The notes under the pieces were generated by a model that ran no database searches, was not told where the DNA came from, and saw only the letters and a list, made by a program, of their open reading frames with translations. DNA of 64,000 bases from Natronomonas aquatica (GTDB lineage Archaea > Halobacteriota > Halobacteria > Halobacteriales > Haloarculaceae): NCBI RefSeq assembly GCF_024449025.1, contig NZ_JAHLKM010000006.1, forward strand, positions 1 to 64,000, in the 5' to 3' direction. Both the position numbers and the translations under genes were made by a program. Positions 46,914 to 58,334 of this stretch are shown one piece after another (the stretch's first letter is position 1; each line of letters starts with the position of its first letter).

Positions 46914-46931
46914 TTTTAGCCTCGCCTAAAA
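46914..46931. promoter_or_regulatory. Degenerate iron-box-like palindrome (distal site)
   Basis: TTTTAGCCTCGCCTAAAA has arms TTTTAG and CTAAAA and one exact GCCTAAAA half-site. It is 18 bp upstream of the perfect site at 46950-46965. Two adjacent sites suggest cooperative binding of a DtxR-type dimer, as at some bacterial iron promoters. Confidence 0.6.
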
Positions 46932-46949
46932 ACCGCCAGAGTTAAATCA

Positions 46950-46965
46950 TTTAGGCCAGCCTAAA
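46950..46965. promoter_or_regulatory. Iron-box-like operator of the flippase-like gene
   Basis: TTTAGGCCAGCCTAAA is a perfect 7+2+7 palindrome. It lies between a TATA-like GTTAAATC (46941-46948) and the ATG at 46976, so it covers the expected transcription start. Its half-site TTAGG(C) matches the DtxR/IdeR iron-box half-site. Confidence 0.8.
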
Positions 46966-46975
46966 CCAATACTGG

Positions 46976-48067
46976 ATGAAGGATCGAGGCGTTCTCACGC
47001 GGATCGGCGGTGTCTACTCGCGCGAGCGGCTGACCGTCGTCGGAACCGTACTCGTGGTGATCGTCGGGGGCGTCATCCTCGCCCGGACCGTAGATCTCCG
47101 GAGGACGATCGCGCTGCTTTCGGAGGCCGATCTGCGCCTTCTGGGGGCGGCGCTCTGTGTGTATCTGCTCTCTTGGCCCCTCCGCGGGCGACGGTTCGGC
47201 GACGTGCTCGCGTCGATGGACAGGCGCTTCGGGCTCGGGTTTCTCACGTGGACTGTCTTCGGGAGCCAGACCGTGAACCTGATCGTTCCCGCGCGGGCCG
47301 GCGACGGCGTCCGGGCGTACCTCCTCAAAGAGCGGCGGGGCGTCCCGTACCCGATCGGCGTCGCCTCGCTGGCCGTCGAGCGCGCGTTCGATCTGGTGGC
47401 GATCGCCACGCTGGGCGGGGCGGCCTTCGCGGTTCTCCTCCTCGAGGGCCGGTGGGTCGCGGCGGGCGATTCGACGGTCGGGACGACGGTCGCGCTCGGT
47501 GTCGCCTCGCTGGCTCTGGTGCTTTCGGTCACGACGGTCGCCGTCGCCCGGAGCGATCGAACCCTCGGCCCGGCGCTCCGCGACTCCCTCGGGCAGTCGC
47601 GGCTCTCGGGAATCGTCGACGCCGCGATCGACTTCGGCGCCAGCGTCCGCGTCGTCGCCGAGCGTCCACGGGCCCTCGCGACGATCTATGCCGGCAGCGT
47701 GGCCGTGTGGGCGCTGGACGTCCTGACCGCCGTCGCGGTGCTAGCCGCGCTGGTCGGCGGCGGGGGGATATCCGGCTGGGGACTGCTCGCGGTCGGGACG
47801 CTCGCGGTCAGCGTCGGCAATCTCGCGAAGATCCTGCCGCTTTCACAGGGCGGGATCGGCCTCTATGAGGCCGCTTTCACCGGCCTCGTGGTTGGGGTCA
47901 CCCCGATCGGCGTCGAGATCGCCGTGGTCGCCGCGATACTGGATCACGCCCTGAAGAACGCCGTCACTCTCGCCGGCGGCACCGTCGCCGCGATCGCGCT
48001 CAACCTCTCTCCGACGCGATCGCGCGAGGGTGCGGGCGGATCGCCGGCCGAACCGCCAGATTTTTAG
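46976..48067 (+). CDS. Flippase-like membrane protein (UPF0104/LPG-synthase membrane domain)
   Basis: This 363-residue protein has about eight hydrophobic helices. It shows the UPF0104 hallmarks RGRRFGDVLASM, GSQTVNLIVPARAGDGVRAYLLKERRGVPY and the late GNLAKILPLSQGGIGLYEAAFTGL. Relatives take part in lipid-linked glycan handling and are often annotated as flippases, though activity is seldom proven. It is preceded by two iron-box-like sites, and its stop codon is embedded in the next one. A role in exporting or modifying a lipid-linked sugar in the iron-regulated locus is an inference. Confidence 0.85.
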   Translation: MKDRGVLTRIGGVYSRERLTVVGTVLVVIVGGVILARTVDLRRTIALLSEADLRLLGAALCVYLLSWPLRGRRFGDVLASMDRRFGLGFLTWTVFGSQTVNLIVPARAGDGVRAYLLKERRGVPYPIGVASLAVERAFDLVAIATLGGAAFAVLLLEGRWVAAGDSTVGTTVALGVASLALVLSVTTVAVARSDRTLGPALRDSLGQSRLSGIVDAAIDFGASVRVVAERPRALATIYAGSVAVWALDVLTAVAVLAALVGGGGISGWGLLAVGTLAVSVGNLAKILPLSQGGIGLYEAAFTGLVVGVTPIGVEIAVVAAILDHALKNAVTLAGGTVAAIALNLSPTRSREGAGGSPAEPPDF

Positions 48068-48080
48068 GCTGGCCTAAAAA
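48061..48080. promoter_or_regulatory. Iron-box-like operator of the GT75 gene
   Basis: TTTTTAGGCTGGCCTAAAAA is a perfect 9+2+9 palindrome, the longest of the set. It overlaps the TAG stop of the flippase-like gene (48065-48067) and ends 11 nt before the ATG at 48092. It would thus block transcription of the GT75 gene under repression. Confidence 0.82.
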
Positions 48081-48091
48081 ATACGCTGGCG

Positions 48092-49273
48092 ATGAGCCGA
48101 GACACGACAGCGGAGTCCGACCGGGACATCTGTGTGATCGTTCCGACGATCCGGGAGCACGAGTGCGTCCGGGCCTACGTCAAGAACGCCCGCGAACACG
48201 GGTTCGACGTCTCGCGGCTGTACTTCGTGCTCGTTACGGAGGATTTCTGTGAGACCGATACGATGCGGACGATGCTCGAGGATCTGGACGTCGCCGGGGC
48301 GGTCTTCGACGGCACCCGTCGGGAGGAGTGGTACGAAACACACGGGATCGAGGAGTACGCCCACGTCGTCCCCGCCGCCTCCCACGCCGAGACGAGCTTC
48401 GGTCTCCTCTATATGTGGGCCGACGAGCGCTTCGAGTACGGCCTCTTCATCGACGACGACACGCTTCCACACGACGAGGAGGACTACTTCGGAACGCACA
48501 TGCATAACCTCGCCTTCGCGGGAGAGATAGAGCGCGTCCGCTCCGACGAGGACTGGGTGAACGTGCTGTATCAGAACGCCGACGAACACGGGCTCTATCC
48601 CCGGGGGTACCCCTACTCGGCGATGGACGAGACCGTCGAGACCGACACCGTCGAAACCGAACGCGGCGGGGTCGTCGCCTCCCAGGGGCTGTGGACGAAC
48701 GTTCCCGACCTCGATGCGGTCCGGATCCTGATGGACGGCGACCTCAACGGACAGGCCCAGACCCGGACGAAGGCCGGGGATTTCGAACGCGATTTCGTCG
48801 CGGGCTCCGGGAACTACCTCACGGTCTGTTCGATGAACCTCGCGTTCCGTCGAGAGGTGATCCCGGCGTTCTATCAGCTCCCGATGGACGAAAACGAGTG
48901 GGACGTCGGCCGCCTCGACGATATCTGGAGCGGCGTGTTTCTCAAGCGCGCCTGCGACGTCCTCGGAAAGCGAATCTACAACGGGCGACCGCTCTGTGAA
49001 CACAACAAGGCCGAGCGCTCGACGTTCGACGACCTCCACAACGAGGTCGCTGGACTCGAACTCAACGAACACCTCTGGGAGCTTATAGACGACGCCGGGA
49101 GCGACGCGACGGATTACGCCGGCGTCTACGACGCCATGGCCGACCAGCTCGTCGAGGGTGACTTCGGGGAGTACCGGAACGGGGCGTTCTTCAACCACGT
49201 CGGCGAGCACATGCGCGATTGGCTCGACTGTCTGGAGGTACTCAGGCCCGCTCCCGCGGCGGCCGACGACTGA
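48092..49273 (+). CDS. GT75 (RGP/UDP-arabinopyranose mutase-like) protein
   Basis: This 393-residue protein matches the reversibly glycosylated polypeptide family motif by motif. IDDDTLP (120-126) sits at the acidic metal site and RGYPYS (171-176) has the arginine glycosylated in plant RGPs. GLWTNVPDLDA (199-209), CSMNLAFRREVIPAFY (246-261) and RLDDIWSGVFLKRACDVLG (274-292) follow. Plant members interconvert UDP-arabinopyranose and -furanose; prokaryotic roles are little studied. No membrane segment or signal is present, so it should act in the cytoplasm. A perfect iron-box-like palindrome lies at its promoter. The sugar substrate is unknown. Confidence 0.85.
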   Translation: MSRDTTAESDRDICVIVPTIREHECVRAYVKNAREHGFDVSRLYFVLVTEDFCETDTMRTMLEDLDVAGAVFDGTRREEWYETHGIEEYAHVVPAASHAETSFGLLYMWADERFEYGLFIDDDTLPHDEEDYFGTHMHNLAFAGEIERVRSDEDWVNVLYQNADEHGLYPRGYPYSAMDETVETDTVETERGGVVASQGLWTNVPDLDAVRILMDGDLNGQAQTRTKAGDFERDFVAGSGNYLTVCSMNLAFRREVIPAFYQLPMDENEWDVGRLDDIWSGVFLKRACDVLGKRIYNGRPLCEHNKAERSTFDDLHNEVAGLELNEHLWELIDDAGSDATDYAGVYDAMADQLVEGDFGEYRNGAFFNHVGEHMRDWLDCLEVLRPAPAAADD

Positions 49274-49292
49274 ACCGACACGACTAAGTTTG

Positions 49293-49308
49293 TTTAGGCT
49301 AGCCTAAA
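49293..49308. promoter_or_regulatory. Iron-box-like operator of the iron-binding lipoprotein operon
   Basis: TTTAGGCTAGCCTAAA is a perfect 7+2+7 palindrome whose core is nearly identical to the bacterial IdeR/DtxR consensus half-sites. It lies between a TATA-like ACTAAGTTT (49283-49291) and the ATG at 49312. Confidence 0.85.
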
Positions 49309-49311
49309 AAT

Positions 49312-50487
49312 ATGACGAGGCACGACAGACACGGACGCGACGTGAGTCGACGCCGGTTCATCCTGGCGTCGGGCGCAGTCGGGATCGCCGGGATCGCCGG
49401 CTGTGTCGGCGGAAACGGATCCGACGGCGACACCGGCAACGGCAACGGGAACAGTGGCAACGGTAACGGCGACGACGTGACCGATTCGGGGACCGGCCAG
49501 ATCGGGTCCGGCCGGGAGGGCCGCGACGGTCCCGGCGGAACGCCGATCGCCGAGATGCCCCCTCTCAAGGGCGAACTCCACGTATACTCCGGACGCGGGG
49601 AGTTCCTCGTCGGCGAGTTGGTCGACTACATCGAAAACCAGTACGACGATTTCTCGCTTACCGTCCGGTACGGGAACTCGACCGACCTCGTAAACCAGAT
49701 CGCAAACGAGGGTGAAGGGTCGCCGGCCGACGTGTTTTACTCGGTGAACTCCGGGGCCCTGGGCGCGCTGGCCGGGGAGGGGCGGACACGGACGCTCTCC
49801 GAGGAAGTCGCCGGGATGGTCCGCGAGGAGTTCCGGACCGGGGAGTGGATCGGTACCTCCGGCCGGGCCCGGACGGTCCCGTACAACAGCGACGCCTACT
49901 CGGCCGAGGATATGCCGAACGACATCATGGCATACCCAGAGGAGTTCGAGGGTAATCTCGGGTGGGCCCCCTCCTACGGCTCCTGTCAGGCGTTCGTCAC
50001 CGCGATGCGGATCCTCGAAGGCGAAGAAGCGACCCGGGAGTGGCTCGATGGGGTCACAGAGGCCGGGATCCAGGCGTACCCCGACGAGTTCGCCGCCTGC
50101 CAGGCGATCGCCGACGGCGAGATCGACGCCGCCTTCACCAACCACTACTACATCCAGCGCGTACTCGACGGCAACCCCGAAGCCTCGATCGCGACCGCGT
50201 TCACCGAAGGCGACGCCGGAGCCGCGTTCAACGTCGCCGGGGCCGCCGTCGTCGACAGCGCCGAGGACGCGACGCTAGCGGAGAACTTCGTCCGCCACCT
50301 CCTCTCGTCGGAGGCCCAGGACTACTTCGCGCGCTCGACGTTCGAATATCCGCTCGTTCCCGGCGTCGAACCGATCGGCGATCTTCCGACGATCGACGAA
50401 CTCGACGTGCCGGATATCGACCTGACACAGCTTTCGAACCTCGAGGAGACGGTCGATCTCATGCGGGACGTCGGCATCAATATCTGA
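49312..50487 (+). CDS. Ferric-iron ABC transporter substrate-binding lipoprotein (FbpA-like)
   Basis: This 391-residue protein begins with a Tat and lipobox signal (SRRRFILASGAVGIAGIAGC, Cys31) and a Gly/Asn spacer (about 33-75). The type II periplasmic-binding fold follows. The pair of tyrosines in TNHYYIQRV (Tyr279-Tyr280) matches the ferric-iron ligands of FbpA/FutA proteins, and SVNSGALGAL and YNSDAYS are family segments. A perfect iron box overlaps its promoter. Two sugar genes follow in the same operon in place of the usual permease and ATPase; the permease is at 56730. Confidence 0.93.
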   Translation: MTRHDRHGRDVSRRRFILASGAVGIAGIAGCVGGNGSDGDTGNGNGNSGNGNGDDVTDSGTGQIGSGREGRDGPGGTPIAEMPPLKGELHVYSGRGEFLVGELVDYIENQYDDFSLTVRYGNSTDLVNQIANEGEGSPADVFYSVNSGALGALAGEGRTRTLSEEVAGMVREEFRTGEWIGTSGRARTVPYNSDAYSAEDMPNDIMAYPEEFEGNLGWAPSYGSCQAFVTAMRILEGEEATREWLDGVTEAGIQAYPDEFAACQAIADGEIDAAFTNHYYIQRVLDGNPEASIATAFTEGDAGAAFNVAGAAVVDSAEDATLAENFVRHLLSSEAQDYFARSTFEYPLVPGVEPIGDLPTIDELDVPDIDLTQLSNLEETVDLMRDVGINI

Positions 50488-50514
50488 CACCGAACGCACT
50501 AGGAACCGCCCGAC

Positions 50515-52695
50515 GTGTTGTACCAACTGATCCGGACGATCCGCCGGCGGTACGCGAACGCGAGACGCGCCGCCCGCAAGCGGGCCGTCCGTTCGGATCC
50601 CCCGCTCGTCGCCGCCGGGATCGCCCTCGTCGCGGGAGTGGCCGTCTTCCTTCTGGCTACCACCGTCTTCGGCTATCACTCCAGCAACCACGACGAGGGG
50701 GTGTATCTCACCCAGGCGGCGATGCTTCTGGACGGGCAACTCGAACTCCACGCCGGCGATCTCGTCGGCGCGTTCCGGCCGTGGTTCTTTGTCGAGGACG
50801 GCGGACGCCTGTACCCGAAGTACACACCTGTTCCGGCGGCGATGTACGCCGTCTCGATGGCCCTGTTCGGGGAGCCCCGTGTAACGCTTGCGGCCGTCGC
50901 CGCGGGCAACGCAGCGCTCGTGTACGCACTGGGGCGGATGCTCGTCGATCGCCGGACGGGCGCCGTCGCCGCCGGCTTCTTTGCGGCCTCGCCGCTTGCG
51001 CTCGTGACGACGTCGGTGTTTCTGCCGTACGCGCCGACGACGCTTCTGAACCTGCTTTTCGCCGTCGCCTATCTGTACGGGATCCGCGAGGGATCGGCCG
51101 TCGCCGCCGGCGTCGCCGGGGTCGCGATCGGACTGGCGTTTTTCGCCCGCCCGTTCACCGCGGTCCTCTTTGCGATCCCGTTCGTCTGTCACGCGCTGTA
51201 TCGCGTCGGCACCGCGATCCGTCGGGCGGGGCTTCTGCCGCTTCCGGGTCCCGTCCGCCGACAGGTGCTGACGGCCTTCTTCGGGCTCTGTTTCGTCGGC
51301 GTGACGCTCGCCTACAACGCCCGTCTGACCGGCTCGCCGCTCGTTTTCCCCTACGAGGCGTTCGCGCCGCTGGACGGCCCGGGGTTCGGCCGCCGCCGGA
51401 TCCTCGGACACTCGATCGTCTACTCGCCGGAGGTCGCCCTCGAGGCGAACGGTTACGTTCTCCGGTACTTCTCGACGCGGTGGTTCACCGCCGGGATCCT
51501 CGGGACGGCGCTTTCGGTCGCCGGGCTGGCGTTTTCAGCCCGCCGCTGGTACCGGGGAGAGGCTGTCCCCGGGTCGAGCGTCGACAGGGACAGCCGTTTC
51601 CAGCGGACTGCCGGCGTATTGATCGCGGGACTGTTCGTGACGGTTCCGGTCGGCAACCTCCTCTTTTGGGGCAACTTCAACATCCTCGCGACGCCCTCGG
51701 ATCCGACCGACGGGATCGTCTCGCAGTTCGGTCCCTTCTATCACTTCGATCTGCTTGTCCCGTTTTCGCTTTTCGCTGCCGTCGGTGTTTTCGCCTGCTG
51801 GCGGTTCCTCCGGGCGTTCGGTTCGCGGCTCAAAACGCGGTGGTCGCCGCGCGCCGGGAAGGCGTTTCTCGTCGTCGCGCTCCTCGCCAGCGTCCTTCTG
51901 GTCGGCGCCGTCAACGTCACGGCCGTCTCGGCGCCGCTGGAGCGGAACGCGGCACACGAAGCCAAACACGAAGCCGCCTACGAACCCATCGAGAGGACGT
52001 CCTTCGAGGACGCGCTGGTCTTCATCCCGACCCCGTACGGCGACTGGCAGAACCACCCCTTCCAGTATCTCCGGAACGATCCCGGCTTCGATGGCGACGT
52101 GGTGTACGCGCTCGATCGGGATCCGCCCGACGACTTCGCTGTCCTCGACGCCTATCCCGATCGGACCCACTACAGGTACACCTACCGCGGGGAGTGGACG
52201 TCCGATCCGAACCGACACGTCGTCCCGAAACTCGAACCACTCGAGATCCGGCGCGGACCGACGCTGGAAGGCGAAACGACGGTCGGGGTGCCCGAACGAG
52301 TCGACCGTGCGAGTGTTCGTCTGGAGGCCGACGCCGACACGTATGCGGGCTATACCGTGGCCGATCCGGACGGATCGATCACCGCGAACTGGACGCTGGA
52401 CGGCGATACCGCGCGGCTCGTCGAGGGTGATACGGAGCCGATCCCGCTCGAGGAAACCGACACGGTGACGCTGTTGGTGACGCTTGCCCAGGCCGACGGG
52501 TCGACGCTCACTTACCGACAGGAGACGACGGTGCGAACGAACGACGGCGGCGTCGAGGCCGTCTGGCCGCCGGAGCGGTACGTCTGCCCCCTCGTGACCG
52601 ACTGCGGGACCGAGGGGACGTACCTCCCGGACGACCCGGACGCTCACTTCGACGGCGTGTGGTTCGAGACGCGGATGCGGAACACCGAACGATGA
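50515..52695 (+). CDS. GT39/ArnT-like polyprenyl-sugar-dependent membrane glycosyltransferase
   Basis: This 726-residue protein has about ten to twelve hydrophobic helices (31-480) and a soluble C-terminal domain (about 490-726). The catalytic Asp-Glu of GT39/GT83 enzymes is found in NHDEGVYL (Asp60-Glu61), right after the first helix. Such enzymes move a sugar from a lipid phosphate carrier to protein or lipid on the outer face. The GTG start at 50515 is 27 nt after the lipoprotein stop, and an AGGA lies just upstream; TTG at 50518 is an alternative. The gene overlaps the epimerase gene by four bases. Confidence 0.82.
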   Translation: MLYQLIRTIRRRYANARRAARKRAVRSDPPLVAAGIALVAGVAVFLLATTVFGYHSSNHDEGVYLTQAAMLLDGQLELHAGDLVGAFRPWFFVEDGGRLYPKYTPVPAAMYAVSMALFGEPRVTLAAVAAGNAALVYALGRMLVDRRTGAVAAGFFAASPLALVTTSVFLPYAPTTLLNLLFAVAYLYGIREGSAVAAGVAGVAIGLAFFARPFTAVLFAIPFVCHALYRVGTAIRRAGLLPLPGPVRRQVLTAFFGLCFVGVTLAYNARLTGSPLVFPYEAFAPLDGPGFGRRRILGHSIVYSPEVALEANGYVLRYFSTRWFTAGILGTALSVAGLAFSARRWYRGEAVPGSSVDRDSRFQRTAGVLIAGLFVTVPVGNLLFWGNFNILATPSDPTDGIVSQFGPFYHFDLLVPFSLFAAVGVFACWRFLRAFGSRLKTRWSPRAGKAFLVVALLASVLLVGAVNVTAVSAPLERNAAHEAKHEAAYEPIERTSFEDALVFIPTPYGDWQNHPFQYLRNDPGFDGDVVYALDRDPPDDFAVLDAYPDRTHYRYTYRGEWTSDPNRHVVPKLEPLEIRRGPTLEGETTVGVPERVDRASVRLEADADTYAGYTVADPDGSITANWTLDGDTARLVEGDTEPIPLEETDTVTLLVTLAQADGSTLTYRQETTVRTNDGGVEAVWPPERYVCPLVTDCGTEGTYLPDDPDAHFDGVWFETRMRNTER

Positions 52696-53624
52696 CAGCA
52701 CACACCACACAACGGACACTGGTAACGGGCGGCGCAGGGTTCATCGGGTCGCATCTGACCCGCCGGCTCGACGAAGCGGGACACGACGTGACCGTCGTCG
52801 ACGACCTCTCGAACGGTCGGCGGGGATGGGTCCCGGACGACGTCCGGTTCCTAGAGCGGGATCTCACGGAGCGTGATGCCGTCGAGGACGTCGTCGCCCC
52901 GGAGTACGATCTCCTCGTCCATCTCGCCTCCCGGAAAGCGGTCGACGACCCCGACCCGCGTTCGCAGTTCCGGGAAAACACCGACATGACCTACGATCTC
53001 GTCGAGGCAGCCCTCGATGCGGGCGTTCCCGATTTCCTCTTCACGTCGAGTTCGACCGTCTACGGCGAAGCGCCACGGCCGACACCGGAGGATTACGCCC
53101 CCCTGGAGCCGATCAGCGCCTACGGGGCGAGCAAACTCGCCTGCGAAGGGATCCTCTCGACGGCCGCCCACGCCCACGACCTCACGGTCTACAACGTCCG
53201 GTTTGCGAACATCGTCGGTCCGCGCCTCCGGGGGGCGGTCGTCCCCGACTTCATCGAGAAGCTCAGGGACGACCCCGAGACGCTCACGATCCTCGGCGAC
53301 GGCCGACAGGAGAAATCCTACATGCACGTCGAAGATTGCATCGACGCAATGCTGTCCGTCTACGAACACGCCGAGGGGCCGATGGCGACGTACAACCTCG
53401 GCACGCGAACGACCACGTCAGTGAACCGGATCGCCGACGTCGTCGCCGACGAGATGGGGCTTGCCCCCGACTACGAGTACACCGGCGGCGACCGCGGCTG
53501 GACCGGCGACGTGCCGAAGATGCGGCTCTCGATCGAGAAGCTCGCCGCCCTGGGGTGGGAACCGTCGATCGAGAGTACCGAGGCGGTCCGGCGGACGGCG
53601 CGGGAACTTCTAGAAGAGCTGTGA
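52692..53624 (+). CDS. NAD-dependent nucleotide-sugar epimerase/dehydratase
   Basis: This 310-residue extended SDR protein has a Rossmann motif TGGAGFIGSHL (12-22), a catalytic Ser in FTSSSTVYGE, and SAYGASK (YxxxK). The sequence is closest in style to UDP-glucose 4-epimerases. It starts within the stop of the GT39 gene (ATGA overlap) and therefore belongs to the iron-box operon that begins with the lipoprotein. It may supply the sugar donor for the GT39 or GT75 protein. Confidence 0.9.
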   Translation: MTAHTTQRTLVTGGAGFIGSHLTRRLDEAGHDVTVVDDLSNGRRGWVPDDVRFLERDLTERDAVEDVVAPEYDLLVHLASRKAVDDPDPRSQFRENTDMTYDLVEAALDAGVPDFLFTSSSTVYGEAPRPTPEDYAPLEPISAYGASKLACEGILSTAAHAHDLTVYNVRFANIVGPRLRGAVVPDFIEKLRDDPETLTILGDGRQEKSYMHVEDCIDAMLSVYEHAEGPMATYNLGTRTTTSVNRIADVVADEMGLAPDYEYTGGDRGWTGDVPKMRLSIEKLAALGWEPSIESTEAVRRTARELLEEL

Positions 53625-53666
53625 CGGCGGTTCGGCAGTCCGGATTCGCCTGAAGAGACATGACGC

Positions 53667-54419
53667 CTACCGGAAGCGCTCCTCGAGACAGACCTTTACG
53701 ATCGATTTCGCGATCGCGGCACCGCCCTCGATCGGATCGAGTTTCGTCTCGCCGAGCCGCTCGGCGTAGTCGATCGGATGTTCCCGGACGTCGTAGCCTC
53801 TCATCAGCGGCCGGATCAGAAGCTCCGCCGAGAGGCCGGTGTTCTCGGTCCACTCGATCGACTCGACGACCTCACGTCGGTAGGCGCGCATCCCCGTCGT
53901 GGTGTCGTGGACGCGTTCGCCCATCAAAACGCTCGCCCCCAGCGCGAACAGGCGGTTTCCGAGCCGGTTGAAACCGGGCATGGTCTCGGCGCCATGATAG
54001 AGCCGATCGCCGCTGACCACGTCGTAGCCGGCGTTGATCGCCTCCAGAAACTTCGGGAGCTGTTCCATCGGGTAGGTGTCGTCGCAGTCGGTCGTGACGA
54101 CGATCGGCCGGTCGGGCGCGAGGATCGCCTCCCGGACGGCGACGCCGTATCCCTGTGGTTCCTGTTCGATGACGCGGGCACCGTGTTCGCGGGCGATCTC
54201 GGGCGTCCGGTCGGAGGAACCGTCGACGCAGACGACCTCGGCCTTCCCGTCGGTGATCCGTTCGATGTCGGCCAGGACGGTCCCGATCGCCGCCTCCTCG
54301 TTGTAAGTGCCCATCACGACGCTCAGGTCCCCGAAGCCGTACTCCTCGTTCCCGTCCGTGTCGGATTCGCTGCTTTCGATCGTCGGCTCGACGCCCGAGG
54401 GCTCTATCGCTTCGCTCAT
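53667..54419 (-). CDS. GT2 glycosyltransferase (dolichol-phosphate sugar synthase-like)
   Basis: This 250-residue soluble GT2 enzyme has SVVMGTYNEEAAIGTVLADI, VDGSSDRTPEIA, the acidic TTDCDDTYP motif, and GMRAYRREVVESI. It resembles DPM1-type synthases that charge dolichol or polyprenyl phosphate with a hexose, which is the donor class used by GT39 enzymes such as that at 50515. An acidic N-terminal tail (1-30) precedes the fold. An iron-box-like palindrome (54451-54468) overlaps its promoter. Confidence 0.87.
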   Translation of the reverse strand: MSEAIEPSGVEPTIESSESDTDGNEEYGFGDLSVVMGTYNEEAAIGTVLADIERITDGKAEVVCVDGSSDRTPEIAREHGARVIEQEPQGYGVAVREAILAPDRPIVVTTDCDDTYPMEQLPKFLEAINAGYDVVSGDRLYHGAETMPGFNRLGNRLFALGASVLMGERVHDTTTGMRAYRREVVESIEWTENTGLSAELLIRPLMRGYDVREHPIDYAERLGETKLDPIEGGAAIAKSIVKVCLEERFR

Positions 54420-54450
54420 TACCCGTCGTTTCTCCCCGACACACTTGAAT

Positions 54451-54468
54451 TTTTAGGTTCGCCTAAAA
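54451..54468. promoter_or_regulatory. Iron-box-like operator of the GT2 gene
   Basis: TTTTAGGTTCGCCTAAAA has 7-base arms (TTTTAGG/CCTAAAA) around TTCG. On the minus strand it abuts a TATA-like AAAAATTCAAG about 29 nt before the start at 54419, so it would compete with TBP/TFB binding. Confidence 0.75.
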
Positions 54469-54485
54469 CAGTGTGAGGTGTCGGG

Positions 54486-56093
54486 CTACGCCAGCGACGC
54501 TCCGACGGCGTCGGCCGCCCGCAGCGCCAACGCTGCAATAGTGAGCGTCGGGTTCACGGCGCCGGCGGTCGGGAAGACGCTGCTGGAGGCGATCCAGCAG
54601 TTCTCCAGGTCGTGGGTCCGCAACTCCGCGTTCACGACGCTCTCTGTCGGGTCTTCCCCCATCCGGGTCGTTCCCATGTGGTGATACGCCGGGCCGGTGT
54701 CCTCGGGGCCGACGTGCCAGGTGATCTCCGCGCCCAGCGCTTCCAGGATCTCGCGTTGGACCTCGTTGGCCCGCTCGATGGTGCGGAGCGCCCGGTCGTC
54801 GACCGTCCAGCGGACGTCGGGGACGGGGTTGCCGTGATCGTCCGCCCGGTCGTGATCCAGCGCGACGCGGCTTTCGGCCTGCGGCAGTTGCTCGACGAGC
54901 GCGCCCATCCCGATGTGGTCGCCGTACGCCCCCCTGAGTTCCTCGAGCAGGGCGTCACCCCAGTCGTCGCCCGAGAGCGCCACCTCGACCGGCGAGGGGC
55001 CGTCGTAGTTGAAAAACTCCAGTTTGAACGGGGCGATCTCCCCGTCGGCCTCGTCGTAGAACTGGTGGCACTCGCTGGTGAGAAAGCCGACGTGGTTCTG
55101 TCGGGTCGGCTCCGAGAGGCGACCGCCCATCCCGGCGAAGAGGTGGTCCATGAAGAACCGCCCGACGAGGCCACTGGAGTTGGCCAGCCCGTCGGGGTAC
55201 TGTTCGGACTCCGATAGAAGCAGGAGCCGTGGCGTCTCGACGCCCCCGCAGGCGACGACGAAGGCCTCGGCCGTCTGTCGGTACTCCTCACCGTCGGGAG
55301 TGGCGTAGACCGCGGCTCGAACCCGGTCGGCGTCGTGAGCGAGCCGCTGTACCGGTGCCCGATCGATGACCGTCGCGCCCTTCGCTTCGGCCCGTTCGGC
55401 GTGGACCGTCGCGTCGTATTTCGCGCCCGACGGACAGACCGGCTGGCAGGTGCCGTAGCCGACGCAGGCCGACCGGTCGTCGTACGTCTCGGAGTTGCGC
55501 GCGTTGGGGACCGAGTGCATGTCGATCCCCAACTCCTCGCAGGCATCGGCGAAAAGCGAGTCACTGTAGGAGGGTTCGAAGGCCGGCATCGGATACGGCT
55601 CCTCTCTGGGCGGCGCGTAGGGGTTGTCGGAAGCCCCGGCAACGCCGAATTCGCGTTCCGCGGCCGCATAGTACGGCCGGAGGTCAGCGTAGTCGATCGG
55701 CCAATCGGGGCCCACGCCGCGGGCACTCCCCGAGTTGAAATCGTCCTCGTGTAGCCGCATTACCATCCCCTGCCAGTGTAGCGTCGAGCCGCCGATACCC
55801 TTCACGCGGGCGTGGTTCAGCGGATAGAACCACTCCCCGGAGGCCGAGTGTGCGTCGCGTTCGCCCCCGACGTCCCACACGTCTGGCCGATCGTAGGCCG
55901 GCCTGATCGCCCGTTCCTGACGTGCGAGCCGGTCGGCCGGATCGAACCGGGGGCCGGCATCGAGCATCACGACCTCGTGGTCATCGGCCAGCCGGTCGGC
56001 GACCAAAGCGCCGGCGGGACCGGCACCGATCACACAGACGTCGGCGCCCTCGATCGGCATCCGGTCGGCGTGAGGTGAGAAGGCGGCCGTCAT
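54486..56093 (-). CDS. GMC-type FAD oxidoreductase (gluconate/sugar dehydrogenase large-subunit-like)
   Basis: This 535-residue flavoprotein has the FAD-binding VIGAGPAGALVADRLA (about 17-32), the GMC signature KGIGGSTLHWQG, and a cysteine-containing segment CVGYGTCQPVCPSG. The C-terminal catalytic region is YHHMGTTRMGEDP and NPTLTIAALALR. It resembles large subunits of membrane gluconate or 2-ketogluconate dehydrogenases. It has no signal peptide, whereas its overlapping upstream partner has a Tat signal, suggesting export as a complex. No cytochrome c subunit is near, so the electron acceptor is open; a halocyanin gene lies at 59041. Confidence 0.9.
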   Translation of the reverse strand: MTAAFSPHADRMPIEGADVCVIGAGPAGALVADRLADDHEVVMLDAGPRFDPADRLARQERAIRPAYDRPDVWDVGGERDAHSASGEWFYPLNHARVKGIGGSTLHWQGMVMRLHEDDFNSGSARGVGPDWPIDYADLRPYYAAAEREFGVAGASDNPYAPPREEPYPMPAFEPSYSDSLFADACEELGIDMHSVPNARNSETYDDRSACVGYGTCQPVCPSGAKYDATVHAERAEAKGATVIDRAPVQRLAHDADRVRAAVYATPDGEEYRQTAEAFVVACGGVETPRLLLLSESEQYPDGLANSSGLVGRFFMDHLFAGMGGRLSEPTRQNHVGFLTSECHQFYDEADGEIAPFKLEFFNYDGPSPVEVALSGDDWGDALLEELRGAYGDHIGMGALVEQLPQAESRVALDHDRADDHGNPVPDVRWTVDDRALRTIERANEVQREILEALGAEITWHVGPEDTGPAYHHMGTTRMGEDPTESVVNAELRTHDLENCWIASSSVFPTAGAVNPTLTIAALALRAADAVGASLA

Positions 56094-56629
56094 CGGGACC
56101 CCTGTGTGTAGCTTTCCGCCCCGCCGGCGTGACCCTGTGGGTTCTCGATTCCGACGAGTTCGCCGCCCGTCGGGGCGGTATACAGTGCCAACAGGAGTTC
56201 GTTGACCACGTAGTACCGGATCCGCTCGGCGGTCGTGCCGTTCGGGTCCTCCTCGGCGCTGTCGGCGCCGACCTCCCGGAGGAGTCGATCCCGCTCTTCG
56301 CGCGACAGTTCCGTTACCCGCCTGTCGTACCACGATAGCGCGTGCTCGTCGAGTTCGGTGACGGCAGTCCGGATGCCCGAGGCGTGATCTCCCCCGGCGA
56401 GACGCCCCTCGAGGAAGCCGTCGACGAACGCCTCGATGCCGGAGACCTCGGTCGGATAGACGACCTCCGCGACCGCGATCAGCGTCGCTCGCACCCCGCC
56501 GTCGGACGCGCTCGTGTTCGGTTCCGACGAGCTCCCCTCCCGTTCGTTCCGGCGAACACCCAGCGCGATCCCGCCGGTTGCGCCGATCGCCGCGAGGGCG
56601 GCTGCCGCATCGCGCCGCGTCAGCTCCAT
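56090..56629 (-). CDS. Tat-signal small subunit (gluconate 2-dehydrogenase subunit 3 family)
   Basis: This 179-residue protein has a twin-arginine signal MELTRRDAAAALAAIGATGGIALG. A helical domain follows (about 45-165) with LIAVAEVVYPTEVSGIEAFVDGFLEG, typical of the gluconate 2-dehydrogenase subunit 3 family. Such subunits accompany GMC oxidoreductases and carry the Tat signal for both. The gene overlaps the GMC gene by four bases. The iron-box-like site at 56636-56651 lies 7 nt before its start. Confidence 0.87.
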   Translation of the reverse strand: MELTRRDAAAALAAIGATGGIALGVRRNEREGSSSEPNTSASDGGVRATLIAVAEVVYPTEVSGIEAFVDGFLEGRLAGGDHASGIRTAVTELDEHALSWYDRRVTELSREERDRLLREVGADSAEEDPNGTTAERIRYYVVNELLLALYTAPTGGELVGIENPQGHAGGAESYTQGSR

Positions 56630-56635
56630 ACCTGG

Positions 56636-56651
56636 TTTAGGCAAACCTAAA
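56636..56651. promoter_or_regulatory. Iron-box-like operator between the GMC operon and the permease gene
   Basis: TTTAGGCAAACCTAAA has 6-base arms around CAAA. For the minus-strand operon it lies between the TATA-like GGGTATAAG (56654-56662) and the ATG at 56629. The same site is 79 nt before the permease start at 56730 and may serve both directions. Confidence 0.78.
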
Positions 56652-56729
56652 CGCTTATACCCATCGGACTGGTTCGATCCGGTCACGGGAAAGGCTCCGT
56701 CCCACGGACCGCCGCTCGGGGCTACAGAT

Positions 56730-58334
56730 ATGGGCTTGAGACACCGACTCACCGGAGAATCCTCTGAGGGGGAGTCATCCGTCGGACTGACGCTTCTGTC
56801 CGGAGCGATCGCGACGGCGCTGGTGTTCCCTTTACTCTGGCTGGTGATCGAGGCCGCGCGAGTCGAACCCGGTCGGGCGAGCGAACTCCTGTTCAGCGTC
56901 GGGACGCTCGATATACTGATCAACAGCCTCCTGTTGATGGGGGGTGTGACTGCCGGGTCGATCCTGCTCGGCGTCCCGCTTGCGTATCTGACCGTCCGGA
57001 CGGACCTGCCGTTCCGCCGCTTTTGGTCGGTCGCCGCCGCTCTCCCGCTTGTCGTCCCCAGTTACGTCGGCGCGTTCGCGTTCGTCTCGGCGTTCGGTCC
57101 CCGCGGCGAGTTTCACTCGCTTCTGGCACCGCTGGGCGTCGAGCGGCTCCCGGAGGTCTACGGTCTCCCGGGGGCGGTATTCGTGATCACGCTGTATACG
57201 TACCCGTACGTCTATCTGACTACCCGTGCCGCGTTCCTGTCGTTCGATACCGAACTGATCGACGCCGCCCGAACGCTGAACCACGGCCGCTGGCGGTCGT
57301 TTCGGCGGGTTACCCTCCCACAGATCAGGCCGGCGATCGCCGCCGGCGGGCTGTTGACCGCGCTGTATGCGGTCTCCGATTTCGGTACGCCCGCGATCAT
57401 GCGCCTGTCCGTGTTCACTCGTCAGATCTACGTCGAGTATAACGCCTTCGGCCGCGATTACGCCGCGTTGCTCTCGTTGCAGTTGCTCGTCGTCGTGCTC
57501 GTCGTGTTGGTCCTCGAGTGGTCGGTGCGTTCGGAGGGAACCGTTCGAGGCAGCGACGCCGACCGAGCCGGGAGCCGTATCCGACTGGGCAGGTGGCGCT
57601 GGCCCGCGACCGCCTTCCCCGCGGCCGTCACGACCGTCGCGCTCGCCGTCCCGGTCTGGATCCTGTTACTTTGGCTCGGCCGGACCGACGCCGGACGCCG
57701 TCCTTCGATGGCCTTCGAGTGGACGCAGGTGCTCAACTCGGTTTCGATCGCGGCCGCGGCCGCCGTTGTGGCGGCGCTGGCTGCGCTCCCGGTCGCGTAT
57801 TTCGCCGCCACCCACGATTCCCGGATTTCGACGCTCTTCGAGCGGGCGACCTACGTCGGCTTCGCCGTCCCCGGGATCGTGCTGGCGCTCGCGTTGGTGT
57901 ACTTCGGCGCCGGATACTTCCCGTGGATCTACCAGACGCTGCCGTTGCTCGTGTTCGCCCACGTCGTCCGGTTTCTCCCCCAGGCTGTCGGCGCGACGCG
58001 GACCTCTATCCTCCAGGTTGACCCGAAGGTCGTCGAGGCGGGGCGCACGCTCGGGGAATCCCCCATCAGTGCGTTTCGACGGATCACGTTCCCGCTAACC
58101 CGATCCGGGATCGTCGCGGGCGCCGCCCTCGTGTTCCTCACGACGATGAAGGAACTGCCCGTGACGCTCGTCCTCCGTCCCTCGGGATTCGAGACGATCG
58201 TCACCCAGATCTGGCGCGCCCAGGAGACCGCCCTCTATCAGTACGCCGCCGTGCCGGCGCTCATCCTGCTTTTCATCTCCGGGCTCTCGATGGTCGTGTT
58301 GCTCTCACAGGAAGGGAGCGACCGGGGGCTCTAG
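56730..58334 (+). CDS. Fused ferric-iron ABC transporter permease (FbpB-like)
   Basis: This 534-residue protein has about 12 hydrophobic helices arranged as two tandem permease domains. Each domain has an ATPase-contact EAA loop: DAARTLNHGRWRSFRRVTLP in the first half and EAGRTLGESPISAFRRITFP in the second. Such fused permeases are typical of FbpB/FutB iron transporters. The ATG at 56730 is preferred because the upstream frame is antisense to the Tat-subunit gene. No ATPase gene is in the window, so it must share one encoded elsewhere. Confidence 0.92.
   Translation: MGLRHRLTGESSEGESSVGLTLLSGAIATALVFPLLWLVIEAARVEPGRASELLFSVGTLDILINSLLLMGGVTAGSILLGVPLAYLTVRTDLPFRRFWSVAAALPLVVPSYVGAFAFVSAFGPRGEFHSLLAPLGVERLPEVYGLPGAVFVITLYTYPYVYLTTRAAFLSFDTELIDAARTLNHGRWRSFRRVTLPQIRPAIAAGGLLTALYAVSDFGTPAIMRLSVFTRQIYVEYNAFGRDYAALLSLQLLVVVLVVLVLEWSVRSEGTVRGSDADRAGSRIRLGRWRWPATAFPAAVTTVALAVPVWILLLWLGRTDAGRRPSMAFEWTQVLNSVSIAAAAAVVAALAALPVAYFAATHDSRISTLFERATYVGFAVPGIVLALALVYFGAGYFPWIYQTLPLLVFAHVVRFLPQAVGATRTSILQVDPKVVEAGRTLGESPISAFRRITFPLTRSGIVAGAALVFLTTMKELPVTLVLRPSGFETIVTQIWRAQETALYQYAAVPALILLFISGLSMVVLLSQEGSDRGL

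Follow-up and report, generated by a model that had tools for sequence, protein, structure and literature searches.

Why should genes for the uptake of ferric iron share operators with enzymes that build and oxidise sugars? Fe(III) acquisition by haloarchaea without a siderophore cluster is largely an open question: iron uptake has been measured in Halobacterium, but the responsible gene is reported as not identified (PMC11349517). The locus considered here lies in a stretch of 64,000 nucleotides (nt) from Natronomonas aquatica (contig NZ_JAHLKM010000006.1, positions 1 to 64,000; hereafter the window). Its nine genes encode an FbpA-type lipoprotein and an FbpB-type permease, a set of glycan-building proteins and a sugar dehydrogenase with its small subunit; no siderophore synthetase, either nonribosomal peptide synthetase (NRPS) or NRPS-independent (NIS), is found among them. 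Near-perfect shared phylogenetic profiles, together with palindromic iron boxes at the promoters, lead us to conclude with high confidence that these genes form one conserved haloarchaeal iron-starvation module. The original prediction, made from the window, that Fe(III) uptake is joined with sugar enzymes under iron control is well supported by the boxes and by the content of the locus. What the sugar enzymes contribute is addressed below with graded confidence.

An exact search of the window finds the perfect palindrome TTTAGG-N4-CCTAAA at five positions, none of which is assigned a strand: 46950..46965 (before the flippase-like gene), 48063..48078 (before GT75), 49293..49308 (before the fbpA operon), 54452..54467 (before the GT2 gene) and 56636..56651, a site common to the dehydrogenase operon and fbpB. 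Six palindromes had been counted within 10 kb; five are perfect, and the sixth, TTTAGCCTCGCCTAAA at 46915..46930 (likewise unstranded), is an upstream copy before the flippase gene that carries one mismatch. All six fall in 46915-56651, and the exact search finds no further perfect palindrome in the rest of the window, as had been claimed. Across the host genome (3.21 Mb in 82 contigs) the perfect form TTAGGN4CCTAA occurs at six sites, five of which are at this locus, compared with one match for the reversed control pattern; the reversed control of the longer 16-base pattern has no match in the same 3.21 Mb. When up to two mismatches are allowed, 27 sites are found against 56 for the control, so the excess disappears, which indicates that the box set is small and sharply bounded, without a haze of weak sites. 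The box regulon of the host genome is tiny and centred on the 46915-56651 locus. In 12 other genomes, 143 perfect boxes compare with 14 reversed-control matches, and the control counts in the host and in these genomes reject chance AT-rich palindromes as the source of the sites.

Conservation among relatives was assessed in 39 orthologous neighbourhoods, in loci from a scan of named genomes and in two loci from a Haloferax-like genus. A perfect box stands 3-21 nt before the GT75 start in 57 of 65 loci, with 41 different spacers among them. Boxes also precede fbpA (52/63 loci, typically 4-8 nt from the start), the small-subunit gene of the dehydrogenase (TATS3; 26/41, typically 8 nt) and the GT2 gene (26/52, typically 33 nt from the start). 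Over 175 distinct sites in the 65 orthologous loci, the arms are constant and the spacer is variable, and the outer bases, which were not demanded by the search, are nevertheless T in 165 sites and A in 150. At fbpA and at the small-subunit gene, relatives have an AT-rich stretch resembling a TATA element directly before the box; for the box shared by the small-subunit gene and fbpB (56636 in the window), this element is ATATAA, immediately upstream. Because the box usually falls between a TATA-like element and the start codon, its geometry is that of a repressor site. The palindromes thus recur at orthologous promoters, where their absence would have counted against the prediction, and sequence conservation supports their interpretation as operators conserved across the order. 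A GT75 paralog on contig C29 of the host genome has no box, which ties the box to this locus rather than to GT75 as such.

The identity of the box is indicated by its other targets. Outside the locus, boxes in related genomes precede feoA, a SufC-like ATPase and siderophore-type periplasmic binding proteins; they also precede unlinked dehydrogenase copies and a class-III aminotransferase, which may be read as a siderophore-type diaminobutyrate aminotransferase. Many boxes in one genome of apparently Haloferax-like genus precede FhuD-like proteins, and in H. volcanii all fhu operons bear the ferR regulon signal and five FhuD paralogs are upregulated >4-fold under iron starvation (PMC11349517). 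Since these other targets are classical iron-starvation genes, TTTAGG-N4-CCTAAA is an iron box; its earlier comparison with DtxR-type boxes is sustained by the same operator preceding feoA, siderophore-binding proteins and, elsewhere, a stranded fbpC. DtxR-family boxes of similar shape occur in bacterial manganese regulons, and a response to manganese or to some other metal or signal might be envisaged on that general ground, but the other genes behind the box belong to iron metabolism (feoA, siderophore-binding proteins, fbpC) and the likelihood of such a response is very slight. A DtxR-family metalloregulator would be expected to occupy the operators and to block the units when iron is sufficient, and two host proteins contain both DtxR domains, one on C39 (with a FeoA domain) and one on C32. 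Haloarchaeal iron regulons of this regulator family (Idr/SirR/TroR/FerR) likewise have palindromic TTAGG-type operators before feoA and siderophore uptake and synthesis genes; the present locus differs from them in its additional glycan-building and sugar-oxidising arm.

Other gene families also occur behind the iron box. A protein of 48-58 amino acids that carries the motif F.E..N.D.WI[AS][ST]D and matches or is related to DUF7331 (PF24018) repeatedly follows a box and is a candidate iron-starvation microprotein; examples are found in the host genome (G000:C57; L007:9093-9263, minus strand) and at L052, L053, L056, L096, L102, L104, L128, L162, L174, L175 and L197. DUF7552-type (PF24422) genes, assigned through one tested member and by similar N-termini in the others, follow the box at the L153, L158, L161, L165, L168 and L184 loci, and DUF5059 (PF16502) genes do so at L163 and L190, which suggests iron-related roles for both.

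Co-inheritance binds the sugar enzymes to this module. Of 147 genomes sampled from the order, 101 carry a GT75 ortholog (93 of the 123 of good quality), as do 130 of 139 genomes of one family. GT75 and the GT39-like GT-C glycosyltransferase of the locus are both present in 101 of the 147 genomes and both missing from 45, and the single discordant genome, with GT39 only, is 77% complete. The dehydrogenase accompanies GT75 in 96 genomes, with five that have GT75 only, two that have the dehydrogenase only and 44 that have neither. Fisher p values are 3e-37 (GT75/GT39) and 3e-29 (GT75/dehydrogenase), uncorrected for phylogeny. In many genomes the dehydrogenase is unlinked, yet it keeps nearly the same profile, and the distant copy can bear its own box. 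Several genera contain both carriers and genomes that lack the set, as would be expected if the genes had been lost together more than once. The commonest gene order is box-GT75, then box-fbpA-fbpB-fbpC-GT39, then GT2, and this arrangement is probably close to the ancestral one. In other lineages, including that of the window, GT39 follows fbpA, fbpB lies behind the dehydrogenase box and fbpC is missing from the locus. The GT-C gene is within the fbpA operon, directly after fbpC in many lineages. At L140 (G051:C1:395447-395746), a piece of a flippase gene of 78 residues lies next to a perfect iron box and is apparently a relic of a lost part of the locus.

The importer is the most readily interpreted component. 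FbpA (49312..50487, plus strand) has a Tat/lipobox N-terminus (Tat, twin-arginine translocation), its closest solved relatives are ferric-binding proteins (7w3w, 4elo), and its ferric-ligand tyrosines Y92, Y279 and Y280 are invariant in 64/64 sequences. FbpB (56730..58334, plus strand) is a ferric ABC permease with two BPD_transp_1 stretches (PF00528). Both assignments agree with those made originally. As a refinement, the fbpC ATPase gene is not found among the window genes, and a candidate FbpC-like ATPase is encoded on C39 of the host genome behind a box with one mismatch. In one genome with an fbpC-less locus, the stranded fbpC begins 14 nt from a perfect box. The invariant tyrosines and the two-domain FbpB are shared with FbpABC/FutABC importers, as is the fbpC that many relatives keep in the operon; in contrast to these, the operon here runs on into the GT-C gene, has GT75 and GT2 as neighbours, and in the lineage of the window is separated from fbpC, which is located elsewhere. 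When iron is scarce, FbpA, FbpB and an often distantly encoded FbpC would import Fe(III), a step that is strongly supported by homology.

The glycan-building enzymes were correctly assigned in the original prediction, as judged by profile and structure-relative searches, which also bear out its flippase-like and dehydrogenase assignments. GT75 (48092..49273, plus strand; PF03214) is an RGP-type NDP-pyranose mutase-like protein with solved relatives 7xpr/7yua (MtdL-type) and 8cid. When compared with the catalytic, metal and substrate residues of MtdL (PMC9937993), the equivalents of Asp109/111, Arg159, Asp195, Arg257, Asp260 and His287 are invariant in 66 sequences. The DDD motif and the reactive Arg, Asp, Arg, Asp and His equivalents are thus as in GT75 mutases (MtdL, plant UAM/RGP), whereas Gln229 of MtdL is replaced by Met248 in all 66. 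A GalE-like, NAD-dependent sugar epimerase/dehydratase (52692..53624, plus strand; PF01370; relatives 8rdg, 3ehe) is encoded nearby. The GT2 protein (53667..54419, minus strand) scores 415 bits against the dolichyl-phosphate hexose transferase family NF041391 (cut-off 375), and its solved relative 5mlz is a dolichyl-phosphate (DolP) mannose synthase. The flippase-like membrane protein (FLIP; 46976..48067, plus strand) belongs to UPF0104/LPG_synthase_TM (PF03706, 1.1e-36; TIGR00374), a family to which the C-terminal domain of AglD belongs as well (PMC5898192). Haloarchaeal DolP-sugar systems (HVO_1613, AepG, AglD) resemble the locus through the NF041391 family, for GT2 a likeness at the level of family, and through the UPF0104 family, and differ from it in that iron-box control and linkage to iron import are found here; HVO_1613 is reported to have no role in N-glycosylation (PMC9943897). 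Two genes that are induced in iron-starved H. volcanii, HVO_1859 (UPF0104, 11.6-fold) and HVO_0655 (GalE family, 12.7-fold), were considered as orthologs of the flippase and the epimerase and were not used as proof. The flippase query retrieves one protein from each of three Haloferax-like genomes, in a long frame that resembles an AglD fusion, and a GalE protein near a box in one Haloferax-like genome is 29% identical to the locus epimerase.

The GT-C glycosyltransferase (50515..52695, plus strand; PMT_2/GT39-like, PF13231) has a C-terminal beta domain, DUF7846 (PF25230), and an invariant D60/E61. Its AlphaFold model (pLDDT, the predicted local distance difference test, 86) is matched by Foldseek to AglB, ALG9, ArnT and AftA/EmbC, the last being mycobacterial arabinofuranosyltransferases, at TM-scores of only 0.3-0.5, so the predicted enzyme class seems fairly safe and its specificity does not; a family profile search against solved structures gave nothing firm. 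Because this gene lies in the fbp operon, the strongest rival to an iron-capturing glycan is dedicated O- or N-glycosylation of FbpA or other envelope proteins by the GT-C enzyme, which would stabilise or position them without the sugar ever touching iron. The predicted fold, like that of AglB and Pmt4, is consistent with such a role, as is a distant Micrarchaeota GT75 relative (L108:5685-9420; 50% identical) that adjoins an STT3-like oligosaccharyltransferase, a pairing that may reflect an earlier involvement of GT75 in glycosylation. Protein glycosylation leaves the co-inherited exported sugar dehydrogenase unexplained, however, and the FbpA of the window has a linker that is rich in Gly/Asn/Asp and contains few Ser/Thr, so we regard it as rather unlikely.

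A broader envelope response deserves comparison because haloarchaea produce acidic exopolysaccharides through DolP sugars (PMC9943897): starvation could turn on some other surface polysaccharide, for aggregation or protection, that is co-regulated with iron uptake and stands outside it. Behind the boxless GT75 paralog of the host genome (62% identical; G000:C29, L085:8638-13117) come genes for a sulfatase, a UPF0104 flippase and a GT2-like protein; this other glycan cluster, which has no iron box, fits such a response. Against it, the GT-C gene and fbpABC form one operon in distant lineages, a tighter association than co-regulation alone needs, and we consider general remodelling improbable.

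The catalytic subunit of the sugar dehydrogenase (54486..56093, minus strand; GMC, BcGDH/FDH-like) is closest to those of the FAD glucose dehydrogenase from Burkholderia (6a2u, E=7e-85) and of fructose dehydrogenase, and its Fe-S cysteines C210, C216 and C220 are invariant in 34/34 sequences. The small subunit (56090..56629, minus strand; PF13618, gluconate 2-dehydrogenase subunit 3 type) has a Tat signal with conserved R5 and R6. The prediction of an exported GMC dehydrogenase is therefore right in enzyme class, with the Tat signal on the small subunit and not on the GMC enzyme itself. In Burkholderia-type enzymes, too, a Tat hitch-hiker serves as the small subunit, and a 3Fe-4S cluster is bound by the catalytic one (PMC9727119). 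BcGDH shares the three Fe-S cysteines and the hitch-hiker subunit with the present enzyme, but its inter-subunit disulfide Cys213 is replaced here and the locus lacks a gene for its multiheme cytochrome c subunit; none was found among the locus genes, to which that search was confined. The locus encodes an Fe-S dehydrogenase and its Tat subunit but no cytochrome partner, which leaves room for another electron acceptor, and the enzyme might send electrons from sugar to Fe(III) and solubilise it by reduction. The importer keeps its ferric-binding tyrosines and so takes Fe(III), and neither a dedicated GT75 nor a GT-C enzyme would be needed; the chance that this is the function appears small indeed.

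An iron-capturing glycan is preferred to these alternatives because it uses every part of the locus, including the exported dehydrogenase. The epimerase and the GT75 mutase, whose enzyme classes are supported, would supply nucleotide sugars, a furanose among them. GT2 would charge dolichyl phosphate with hexose, flipping may be the task of the UPF0104 protein, and the GT-C enzyme could move the sugar onto an acceptor outside the cell. There, the Tat-exported FAD dehydrogenase would oxidise the exposed sugar, and the resulting glycan, rich in hydroxy acids and either surface-bound or released, would keep Fe(III) soluble and hand it to FbpA. That an oxidised glycan retains Fe(III) near the cell for uptake through FbpA is plausible, though somewhat short of probable. 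The fuller proposal of a carbohydrate-based ferrophore, in which a furanose-containing oxidised glycan made through DolP sugars and the GT-C enzyme delivers Fe(III) to FbpABC under iron-box control, is more tentative. Several points weigh against a capture glycan. The glycan, as product, and its acceptor are both hypothetical, and GT-C enzymes of the same fold glycosylate proteins too. For a cell short of iron, the Fe-S cysteines of the dehydrogenase are an odd cost, and no cytochrome partner for the enzyme is encoded among the locus genes. The five GT75-bearing genomes without a detectable dehydrogenase imply that oxidation may be dispensable.

Each element on its own is known, namely iron boxes, Fbp importers, GT75 mutases and FAD dehydrogenases, and the literature searched gave no account of their union within a single haloarchaeal regulon; it did not extend to the main regulon studies (e.g., Leyn and Rodionov 2015), where an earlier listing of some of these genes is possible. 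The iron regulon is thus of a known kind, and its glycan and dehydrogenase arm appears to be new. The locus suggests an undescribed, sugar-based way to cope with iron shortage, and gives a possible role to members of the DolP-hexose transferase and GT75 families and of a PMT-like family of unknown function. Presence in 93 of 123 good-quality genomes, co-inheritance and an iron operator mean that the module can be tested through gene deletions in strains amenable to genetics. Elsewhere in the window, a tRNA-Leu (caa) gene lies at 108-193 on the minus strand.

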